Shown: one piece after another, positions 15,226-21,088 of the stretch
Position numbering within the stretch: position 1 is the first letter of the stretch
Layout of the letters: each line of letters begins with the position of its first letter
From: Actinomycetota bacterium
GTDB taxonomy: Bacteria > Actinomycetota > Acidimicrobiia > Spongiisociales > UBA4744
Direction: 5' to 3'
DNA length: 45,539 bases
NCBI GenBank assembly: GCA_013152275.1
Contig: JAADGS010000037.1
Coordinates: forward strand, 1-45,539
Program-made: the position numbers and the translations under genes
Notes under the pieces: generated by a model
Database searches by the model: none
Seen by the model: the letters and a program-made list of their open reading frames with translations, nothing else
Told to the model about the DNA's origin: nothing

Positions 15226-17733
15226 TCAGTCGGTCGCCTCCGGCAGCAGCTTCAGGTGCTCCTCCGATGCCGCCACGATGCTGTCGCGGTCCCAGTAGAG
15301 CGGAGCCGTCTCACCTGTGGCCCACCGCTGGATCATGTCGTCGTAGTGGGGGTGATACGCGTGCCCCGACTGGCCGGTCGTGTAGATCGCGGTCGATGCA
15401 TCGAGGTCGGAGAAGTCGATCACCATGCGCATCGAGGGGAGCGCGACGACTTCATACCCTTTCTCGACGAGCCAGCTCGTCGCATTCACCATGTCGGTAC
15501 CGCCGGGTACCTTGAACGGTCCTCGGTTGAACAGCATCTCGATTGGTGCGATTCCGGACTTACCGAATGTCTGGTTCACGAACGTCGCCGTGTGCAGGTC
15601 GCCCCAGTGCCACGAGGCGGGGTCTCCGAGCGTGTCGTTCAACTCGTTCCACGAGGCCAGCAGTGCCGCTTCCAGGATGTCGTCGCGTGTCTCCACCGCC
15701 GAAGTGGTCTGGTCATCCCACCAGATGTTCGTCGGGTCGTCGAGGATCCGTCGGATCGCCTCGAGCGAAGAGTCCCTTCCCGACGGGCGTAGGCCTTCCG
15801 GCAGGTCGTCGTTGTAGACCAGGATCAGCAGGTTCTTCCATACGGCTCCGAAGAGCGCGGCCCCCTGGCTGTCGACATCGAAGCGGTACTCGCCATCGTC
15901 ACCCGCCCAGGACTCCAGGATTGCCTGGGCTTTTCGAACGTCCGGGACGCCGGAAGCAAGTCCGACCAGGCGGGGCAGGAGCACGTCGGCGTGGATACTG
16001 GCGGCGTCGAACTGCATGGCGCGCACGTCATCGGGGCTGATGGACGTTCCTGCTTCCTGGATCATGTCGACGATTCGCTGCGCCCGCGTTCCGTACGCCC
16101 ACTCGCGGGCCAGGAAAGGGCCGACTCCGGGGCGGGTCACGGCGTTGTTCGCGGTGACGATGAAGCCTTCGGGCGGGTCGAAGCTCGAAGGGAGCCGGTC
16201 GAAGGGGATGAATCCCGTCCACTCGTACGTGTCCGTCCATCCGGGGACGGGCATGCGCCCGTCGCCGGCGGCTCGAATCGGGATCTTTCCGGGAGCGTGA
16301 TATCCGATGTGGCCGTCGACGTCCGCGTAGACGAAGTTCTGGGAGGGGACGTCCCACATGCGGAGAGCATCTTGGAACTCGTCCCAGTTGGCGGCACGAT
16401 CGATTGCCACGATCGATTCGAGTGTTCGAGATGGTTCGAGTGCCGTCCAGCGAAGAGCGATCGCATATGGCTCGGGGAGTGGCGTGTCGGTCTTCTCGTC
16501 GAAGTCTTTGAGGCGTCCATAGACATCGGAGATGATCGGACCGTGGCGAGTCACCCGGACGTTCATCTGCACGGGCTCGCCGCCGGCGACAGCGATGGTC
16601 TCGGTGCGGGTCTCCGCATCAACCCATTCACCGTTGACCTCGTACTGATTCTGGTTGTCCGGGTTGATCTTCTCCACATACAGGTCCTGCACGTCCGCGG
16701 CGAGATTGGTCACACCCCAGGCGATGTTGGCGTTGTGGCCGATGACGATTCCTGGAGCGCCGAGGAGGGAGAAGCCGGCGACCTCATAGGGGCAGGCATC
16801 CGATACGTTCGTGCAATGCAGACCTGTCTCATACCAGATGGCGGGCATCTGGATGCCGAGATGTGGATCGTTTGCCAGGATCGGCTCGCCGGTGGAGGTC
16901 AGGGATCCGGAGATCACCCAGTTGTTCGAGCCGATGTCCGAACCGACCGGTCCCGTGAGCTGATTGATGAGCTCGATCGTATCTGCAGTGCGGGCGAGGA
17001 GGTCGTCTGTCTCCTCCGGCAGGACCGGAGCGGCTGCGCTCGTCGCCGAACTCGCGTAGTCGGGGACGATGACGGGCCGGTCTTGCGGATACGGCGGGTA
17101 CAGGTCATCGACACGATCCCCGATCAGCTTGGACGCTTTTGCACGAAAGATCTCCAGATCCATGTTGGAGCGCAGGTCCCACGCCATCACCTTGGCCCAG
17201 ACAAGGCTGTCGATCGGACTCCATGGCGCGGGGACGTAGGAACGATTGTTCAGCTTCAGGATCGCGTACTCCAGGCTCAGGGATGCTCCCTGATGATCGG
17301 AGAGGTACGCGTTGACGCCATCGGCGAACGAAGCAAGGGCGAGTGCGCTGTCCGGTGAGGCAGCCGCCCATTCCTGCTCGGCGATCCGTTCCCATCCAAG
17401 CGTACGGAGGAACTGGTCGGTTTCGACCTGGGATTCGCCGAAGATCTCTGCAAGACGTCCGCGACCGACGTGACGCTGGAAGTCCATCTGCCAGAAACGA
17501 TCCTGCGCCTGGACGTATCCCTGCGCGAAGAACAGGTCGTGACTGCTCGTCGCATAGATATGGGGCACGCCGTCTCCGTCGCGATAGATGTCGACAGGAT
17601 TCTGGAGACCACGAACAGTCAGTTCCCCATCCGTGGTGGGGAACGAGGCGCGCACGGTGAGGAACCCGCCGGCGGCGACCAGGACTACGAGAACGAGGAC
17701 GAGGATGAGGAGGATCTTGAAGAATCTGCGCAT
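15226..17733 (-). CDS. Penicillin acylase family Ntn hydrolase
   Basis: An 835-residue exported protein. The N-terminus is a membrane signal or anchor (residues 6-28). The alpha region follows (DIYRDGDGVPHIYATSSHDLFFAQGYVQAQDRFWQMD is typical). The predicted self-cleavage site gives the nucleophile serine S269 in GSNNWVISG; after it come EPILANDPHLGIQMPAIWYE and ITRP/TANNAV motifs of the beta subunit. The family cleaves amides such as beta-lactam side chains, acyl-homoserine lactones and cyclic lipopeptides; the natural substrate here is unknown. It probably acts outside the membrane. A TAGCCT -10 box 6 nt before the ATG supports the start and a leaderless mRNA. Confidence 0.92.
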   Translation of the reverse strand: MRRFFKILLILVLVLVVLVAAGGFLTVRASFPTTDGELTVRGLQNPVDIYRDGDGVPHIYATSSHDLFFAQGYVQAQDRFWQMDFQRHVGRGRLAEIFGESQVETDQFLRTLGWERIAEQEWAAASPDSALALASFADGVNAYLSDHQGASLSLEYAILKLNNRSYVPAPWSPIDSLVWAKVMAWDLRSNMDLEIFRAKASKLIGDRVDDLYPPYPQDRPVIVPDYASSATSAAAPVLPEETDDLLARTADTIELINQLTGPVGSDIGSNNWVISGSLTSTGEPILANDPHLGIQMPAIWYETGLHCTNVSDACPYEVAGFSLLGAPGIVIGHNANIAWGVTNLAADVQDLYVEKINPDNQNQYEVNGEWVDAETRTETIAVAGGEPVQMNVRVTRHGPIISDVYGRLKDFDEKTDTPLPEPYAIALRWTALEPSRTLESIVAIDRAANWDEFQDALRMWDVPSQNFVYADVDGHIGYHAPGKIPIRAAGDGRMPVPGWTDTYEWTGFIPFDRLPSSFDPPEGFIVTANNAVTRPGVGPFLAREWAYGTRAQRIVDMIQEAGTSISPDDVRAMQFDAASIHADVLLPRLVGLASGVPDVRKAQAILESWAGDDGEYRFDVDSQGAALFGAVWKNLLILVYNDDLPEGLRPSGRDSSLEAIRRILDDPTNIWWDDQTTSAVETRDDILEAALLASWNELNDTLGDPASWHWGDLHTATFVNQTFGKSGIAPIEMLFNRGPFKVPGGTDMVNATSWLVEKGYEVVALPSMRMVIDFSDLDASTAIYTTGQSGHAYHPHYDDMIQRWATGETAPLYWDRDSIVAASEEHLKLLPEATD

Positions 17734-17745: not shown

Positions 17746-17881
17746 GTGGCTCGGTAGGCAACGTTCCTGGCAGGCAAGGGGGAAGGACGGTCTGTCAAGG
17801 GGTATGTGGTCCGATCGCCGGTGATCGCGAGGCGTGAAGCGCCTTGACGCTCGTGAGCCGGTGGGCACTCTCAAAGCCGTT

Positions 17882-19832: not shown

Positions 19833-21088
19833 TCAGGGCGGGTCGTTGCCGCCGGGTTTGAGGAATCGGCGTCGTTGGGGTGGCGTGTCGGGGTCGATCC
19901 GATAGCCCATCCCGTGGATGACGACATGGTGGTGATACCAACACAGCGTCGTGAGGTTCTCCGGATCGGTCGGCCCACCTTGGGAGTACGGGGTGATGTG
20001 GTGGGCTGAGTGCCTCGACAGGCAACCTTTGCGGCGTTCTGCCGGCCAGGAACGCCGCTCGCTGCGTTCTCCGCCTCGACGCACCTGCCGGTGCGCCTTC
20101 GTTGTGCGGCCTTGCCATCGGCGTTCCTGACTCGGCATCGACACCACGAACGTTGCCTGCCAAGGCACCGAAGGCGGTAGCGGCTCGTGCAGGCGTCTAC
20201 CGTGCACACGCAGGCGTCTCTCTGCAGGATCGCTCTCCGTAACGCGGGGTTGACCGTTCGGGTGTGTCTTCCGACGGCCAACGGGGTTCCGTCTCTGGTG
20301 AGGATCGTTTCGATCTGGCTGTCACACAGGAGTCCGTCGAGAGCATCGGGTCCGATCCGTACGCCCGAATCGAGGATGACGCCGGTCTTGTTCTGGGTCT
20401 GGGTTGCCCGGCCGGCATCGACGAAGACGGTGATCAGGGGCGTGCAGGTTCCTTCACCGGCCGTTGCCGTGAGGGAATCCTGGGCAATCGAGGTGAGGGC
20501 GTCCGCCTGTCGCTGCCCCAAGGCCGGCCTCGTTCCATCAGGCAGGGCGGGGAATGCGTCGGCACGTCGGATGAGGGCTTGTTCGACGATCTGGCCGTCG
20601 ACGCCGGGCAGGAGCCCCCACAGGCGCCATGAGGTCTGGTCCAGGTTGGGCTGCATGGCGAGGTACCGGTCGCAGACACTCTGGCGTTCCCGATCACGCG
20701 AGAGGCGATGCCTTCTGAAGATCTCGCGGCGCAGACCGCCGATGTCGAATCGCCATCCGGTCTCTACGGTGTTGTCGACACCGGTCGCGGCGTATCTGCA
20801 CAACTCGACGGCACGGTCGAAGGTGATTCCCCCTGCGCCGAGCGCTTCGGCCACCTCGGGCGTGTCCAGGGCCGCACGGGAGGTCCGCATGAGTGCCGAT
20901 GCGGTCTCCGGCGCCACATCCAGGCGGCTTGCGGTCCATTCGACCATGGAACGGCACCCATCTGCGGTGGATACCTGGCGGCGATCCAGCTCGGCCAACA
21001 CGGCGATCTGCACCGCTCGACTCCGAGCGATGACTGTTTCGGTCGCCAACAGGGTCTGTTCCAGGTCGTCTGTGGTTCGACTGTCCAT
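19833..21088 (-). pseudogene. DUF222/HNH endonuclease gene, interrupted and frameshifted
   Basis: The first 290 or so codons from ATG 21088 encode a DUF222 (13E12-type) domain, ending in the conserved RRAILQRDACVCTVDACTSRYR that leads into an HNH nuclease. The expected HNH core (AHHITPYSQGGPTDPENLTTLCWYHHH) is present, but 160 bp further on and in another frame, ending at 19833. The gap is filled by the inverted-repeat element at 20011-20167. The upstream frame runs through the insert out of phase to 19511, giving a protein without HNH residues. DUF222/HNH genes are multi-copy in many actinobacteria and are thought to be mobile-element linked. A leaderless TATGTT -10 box is still intact. Confidence 0.85.
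20011..20167. mobile_element. 157-bp MITE-like element with 16-bp terminal inverted repeats
   Basis: The ends are TGCCTCGACAGGCAAC (20011-20026) and GTTGCCTGCCAAGGCA (20152-20167), inverted copies matching at 14 of 16 positions. Inside, GGAACGCCG-type segments occur in both orientations (around 20049 and 20119), so the RNA or DNA can fold extensively. It has no coding capacity and sits exactly where the HNH coding frame breaks. No clear target duplication is visible. This fits a small non-autonomous element or a palindromic repeat unit. Confidence 0.7.

Follow-up and report, generated by a model that had tools for sequence, protein, structure and literature searches.

What is the palindromic segment that splits a DUF222/HNH gene in this 45,539-nucleotide stretch of DNA (the window), and how did it come to lie there? 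A reading of the letters alone had described a 157-bp unit (20011-20167), either a non-autonomous transposable element or a folded palindromic repeat. We propose an IS630-type (Tc1/mariner) MITE that has disrupted the gene with one of its copies, and we give this interpretation a probability of about 0.88. The assignment follows from its multicopy nature, empty orthologous sites, insertion at CTAG/TA in relatives, ends that agree, side for side, with those of real IS630 elements, and a degenerate relative of the matching IS that survives in the sister species. The multiple copies, the empty sites and the IS630-like ends likewise support the non-autonomous element suggested earlier.

The element and the interrupted gene

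The element is an imperfect palindrome of 159 bp inside the DUF222/HNH gene (Table 1). The unit described earlier is therefore real, but each of its ends lies one base further out than had been placed. The inverted ends, GTGCCTCGACAGGCAAC (20010-20026) and GTGCCTTGGCAGGCAAC (other strand, 20168-20152), are identical at 15 of 17 positions and contain the 16-bp terminal repeats (14 of 16 identical) of the sequence-only reading. The element is short, has no transposase gene, carries terminal inverted repeats and is multicopy, as is typical of MITEs. RNA folding gives −107.5 kcal/mol for the − strand (z = −7.5, equalled by none of 200 shuffles) and −86.4 kcal/mol for the + strand (z = −4.8). The two earlier options, transposable element and folded palindrome, thus both apply: the element is non-autonomous and folds over its whole length.

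The PF02720 (DUF222) and PF01844 (HNH) domains flank the insert, in agreement with the earlier view that the HNH core is separated from DUF222 and in a different frame. The DUF222 frame contains no stop inside the insert, and its open reading frame continues through the element to 525 aa; the damage is therefore the loss of HNH by frameshift. An orthologue from the same genus (L139, 90% DNA identity) has no insert at exactly this site, and five other, more distant homologues are likewise empty at this point, which places the insert exactly at the break, as had been claimed. The objection that uninterrupted relatives might carry the same unit does not hold, since they lack the 159 bp. The junction reads CGCCTCCAAGC in the uninterrupted gene and CGCCTTC[GGTGCC...GGCAC]TCAGCC in the window. 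The bases beside the window copy, TGA and CGA, are possible degenerate target copies.

Table 1. Coordinates of the interrupted gene and the parts of the inserted element in the window
Feature	Position	Strand	Remarks
HNH part of the split gene, other frame	19833..20009	−	PF01844
Flank TGA	20007..20009	+	possible degenerate target copy
MITE (G...C, without flanking target bases)	20010..20168	−	159 bp; the − strand is the stably folding one
One end, GTGCCTCGACAGGCAACCTTTG	20010..20031	+	matches right end of IS630-type L354, 23/30
Conserved inner core, AAGGCCGCACAACGAAGGCGCACC(loop)GGTGCGTCGAGGCGG and neighbours	20058..20117	−	common to elements with other outer arms
Other end, GTGCCTTGGCAGGCAACGTTCG	20147..20168	−	matches left end of IS630-type L354, 26/30
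Flank CGA	20169..20171	+	possible degenerate target copy
DUF222 part of the split gene	20172..21088	−	PF02720

Copies, insertion sites and IS630-type ends

A BLAST search with the element finds 45 matching pieces in its own 3.07-Mb genome, where full or near-full copies are 80-92% identical. The covariance model described below detects 16 copies there, most of which were found again in the repeat search, and the 22-bp end motif (at most three mismatches) has 33 matches, compared with 1 for the reversed control. The 16 model matches and the 33 end-motif matches against 1 indicate that the window element is not a product of chance. Further copies of the unit and of its ends, which the sequence-only reading had left to be sought, are thus plentiful.

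For one copy in this genome (L003), comparison with the empty site shows that it entered at CTAG and is flanked by TA on each side, and empty/filled pairs in relatives give the same picture. In the g8 sister species, whose flanks are 92-98% identical, the empty sites include CTCTAGGG and GGCTAGGAG; more distant ones read CCCTAGACC and GCTAGAC. The consensus junctions of 87 copies are CT/AGTG...CACTA/G. Because CTAG is palindromic, duplication of TA (2 bp) and of CTAG (4 bp) cannot be distinguished at these sites; the target GCTATCC of another copy (L234) favors TA duplication. At three g8 sites TCA served as the target, with TA on the right only, and deviating flanks number 22 on the left and 8 on the right. 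The window copy, flanked by TGA/CGA and not TA/TA, is among the deviants. The IS630-type element ISY100 duplicates TA in vitro, with 5 of 39 junctions deviating (PMC2170065), and the CTAG preference of IS630 appears in the reference list of that paper.

In some copies the right TA seems to be carried by the element itself. This feature, together with a whole-length hairpin with strand-biased wobble pairs, would suit a Y1 (HUH) transposase that moves a folded single strand without target duplication, as in REPINs/RAYT or IS200/IS605 relatives. We consider such a mechanism extremely improbable, as Y1_Tnp occurs in 1 of the 138 genomes of the order and in none of the 66 with elements, and the ends match those of DDE-type IS630 elements. 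Mobilization by RAYT/IS200 was rejected on account of this near absence of Y1 transposases from the order (1/138).

Looking for an IS that shares these ends, as suggested earlier, led to the IS630 family. IS630-type DDE_3 genes are present in 19 of the 138 genomes. At eight DDE_3 loci, a TA-flanked inverted pair starting with GTG (once with ATG, at one end) encloses 1138-1257 bp; CTA precedes all eight, and TAG follows seven of them and TAA one. In six of the eight elements, both ends resemble MITE arms more closely than shuffled sequences do (no more than 2 of 1000 shuffles as good), and in a seventh one end does. L349 was rejected as a partner, its ends not matching MITE arms beyond shuffles. 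The best match is L354, which sits in another family of the order than the window genome and whose 406-aa reading frame contains HTH and DDE_3 domains. Its left end aligns with the 5′ end of the − strand of the window element and its right end with the other end (Table 1); the left/right difference is kept, none of 1000 shuffles is as good, and the likeness stops after about 30 bp. A second element, L348 of genus g45, matches MITEs of other g45 species (L206, L268). In the sister species G001, a degraded gene with internal stops is related to the L354 transposase (66-80% identity) and still has the matching right end; a 128-aa piece of this remnant has no Pfam match by itself.

The genome of the window yielded no IS630/DDE_3 gene and no such degraded relative, and no DDE_3 gene is listed in the g8 genomes with the most recent insertions. 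A multi-copy IS may be missing through fragmented assemblies. A cognate transposase is in any case not required for membership in the IS630-type MITEs, because a stranded MITE remains a MITE. The lack of a listed DDE_3 gene in the own genome and in the element-rich g8 genomes with recent insertions could also mean that an enzyme not recognized here moves the element, the likeness to IS630 then reflecting a common target context and convergence. This appears very unlikely, since the matches to IS630 ends span about 20-32 bp, preserve the left/right difference, and change from type to type together with those of the MITEs.

For the preferred IS630-type MITE, we propose that an IS630-type transposase, supplied in trans, would recognize the roughly 25-bp ends (GTGCC...GGCAAC), excise the element and insert it at a TA, in most cases one within CTAG, so that TA flanks the inserted element on either side. 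In this manner the window copy would have entered the DUF222/HNH gene, shifting the frame and cutting off the HNH domain. Cut and paste is known for IS630 relatives, and we infer that a transposase of this type moved the window copy by the same route.

A conserved core with an apparently strand-specific hairpin

The inner core is seen in elements with quite different outer arms (59 genomes searched). An alignment of 23 such elements, nearly all of 162-168 nt (A1), was used to build a covariance model (R1). RNAalifold predicts from the alignment a single long hairpin of 47 pairs, 32 of which show two-sided changes. Set against controls (shuffles and slid partners), 93.5% of the cells are paired, and the covariation score is 0.549 vs 0.222 (0/500 shuffles). 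Among 21 representatives less than 80% identical to each other, the average identity is 93% in the end tetranucleotides, 44% in the outer arms, 67% in the mid arms and 77% in the inner 60 nt. In ordinary MITEs only the ends matter, and the element is usually viewed as passive DNA between two recognized ends; in this family the conservation of core and ends is reversed from the usual pattern.

The non-Watson–Crick cells on the − strand comprise 118 G.U and 11 A.C, which argues that pairing is constrained on one strand, although the size of this bias is approximate, since the model of that same strand guided the alignment and related sequences are not independent. A strand-specific fold thus seems to be under selection. 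In L354 and L348, the IS strand corresponding to the MITE − strand is the transposase-coding one. The orientation of the copies relative to host genes is near even (75 vs 85, with the coding strand judged by a crude GC3 test).

Strong covariation (32/47 pairs), constant length, and the position of several copies immediately between one stop codon and the start codon that follows could also be explained by a regulatory or structural RNA of the host, spread by recombination and kept for a host function. We regard this as highly improbable: many copies differ among close species, ends and targets are IS-like, and the near-even orientation, albeit based on a crude GC3 strand call, leads us to reject a host-RNA role as the main reading.

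For the MITE, we infer a role of the folded strand for the element itself, not for the host, with RNA and single-stranded DNA alike possible. As a speculative step, the hairpin core probably helps the element to move or persist in the form of a folded single strand. More tentatively, the family could be a modular parasite, in which a core of nearly constant length (~165 nt), conserved and folded in a strand-specific way, gained ends for different IS630 transposases across the order, or co-evolved with such ends, the folded strand being active in spread or survival; we think this less likely than not. At the scale of the order the ends vary while the folded middle is retained, accompanied by strong compensatory change, and the use of hairpins by bacterial MITEs thereby becomes testable.

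The family across the order and related systems

R1 matches occur in 66 of the 138 genomes and 31 of the 61 genera of the order, mostly at full length (about 160-168 nt), with at least about 20 per genome in many genomes. A match to the window and to the training elements is built into the model; the majority of the other genomes lay outside the training set. Several end types coexist within one genome and recur across families. In a collection of 84,980 species, the exact 22-bp end pattern, which is too specific, has no match. The core pattern has 21 loci there, nearly all labelled Acidimicrobiia or Actinobacteria and none of them in viral contigs, and almost every named record that carries the core is a MAG from these two groups. 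No Rfam family matches: 17 loci gave only tRNAs, and weak matches to microRNA families are far below the gathering score. A published description was not found in the literature searched, which holds few subscription journals. The element, suspected from the outset to be unnamed, is apparently a member of a large, undescribed MITE family spanning a bacterial order. The covariance model offers a means to annotate this repeat, which interrupts genes in uncultured Acidimicrobiia and probably breaks their assemblies.

The closest parallel we can offer is RUP of Streptococcus pneumoniae, for which IS630-Spn1 is the proposed mobilizer (PMC2229807, PMC3049150). The end and target evidence presented here is of the same kind as that which assigned RUP to IS630-Spn1 (PMC2229807). 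Like the present family, RUP measures about 100-165 bp, has IS630-like ends, a TA target and a high copy number, folds with paired ends, and sometimes interrupts genes. However, RUP is essentially one family in one species group with its IS present, whereas the family described here has one core across an order, several end types, and an IS that is mostly absent from the same genome.

Internal insertions are found in ERIC/IRU, as in the present family. No sequence relation between the two is seen. ERIC/IRU, a 127-bp enterobacterial repeat (PMC2229807), is also palindromic, intergenic and of high copy number, with open frames in places; no IS partner of ERIC is reported in the review (PMC2229807), whereas IS630 partners were found here. 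ISY100 (PMC2170065), representing IS630/Tc1-mariner, shares the TA target and the CTAG preference. The IS630 elements of this order (1.1-1.3 kb) have the same end types as the MITEs but, unlike them, are autonomous, and the similarity is limited to the outer 20-32 bp. REPIN/RAYT (PMC3116915) are palindromic, dispersed and of high copy number as well; in contrast, the element-bearing genomes here have no Y1 transposase, and the present family has DDE-type ends and targets.

Several minor observations concern single copies. The related string noted earlier near 17757 corresponds to window 17746-17767, where CTA is followed by GTGGCTCGGTAGGCAACGTTCC with 19 of 22 matches to the end motif, just upstream of an acylase-like reading frame (15226-17733). 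No second end or full element was found near it; a relic of a single end, in line with the remnant proposed earlier, is a possible reading. Other places in this genome also carry single ends of this sort (L020, L023, L028). Two further loci of the same genome (L012, L027; model scores 94 and 82 bits) have the core with another outer arm type, GGAGCCCGCCGAGCA....

G001 has the same ends around partly different interiors. Two insertions that appear orthologous by their flanks (L010/L123 and L005/L119, in the own genome, G000, and G001, respectively) differ in their interiors, as though the middle had been swapped or lost once the element was in place. The loops of some MITE copies (L123, L124, L129, L130 and L131 in G001; L007, L009 and L019 in G000) contain nested palindromic modules of other kinds (TTCTTGCGTGAG...CTCACGCAAGAA; GGATCGACCCG...CGGGTCGATCC), and the TTCTTGCGTGAG...CTCACGCAAGAA module also adjoins the decayed IS630 of G001 (L370, about 1218-1275). 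Six copies (L094, L096, L097, L101, L102, L103) lie exactly between an apparent TAG stop and the ATG of the next gene (TAGTG...CACTGATG).

In genome G030, the end motif marks 146 ends, compared with 30 in the reversed control. No autonomous copy is present among the listed end pairs (100 of the 146 places), and a 757-bp pair proved to be an ordinary copy with a stray left end next to it. This genome also holds shortened versions without the core, of 70-71 bp (L294, L296) and 96 bp (L295, L297). These have perfect paired arms, CTAG or similar flanks, and two recurring sizes; they could have arisen by repeated apical deletions or be able to move without the core. Three further G030 loci (L292, L293, L298) are tandem dimers of nearly identical copies, whose inner ends come together in an odd, shared junction, GACGCGAAAGTGG or GACGCGATAGTGG.
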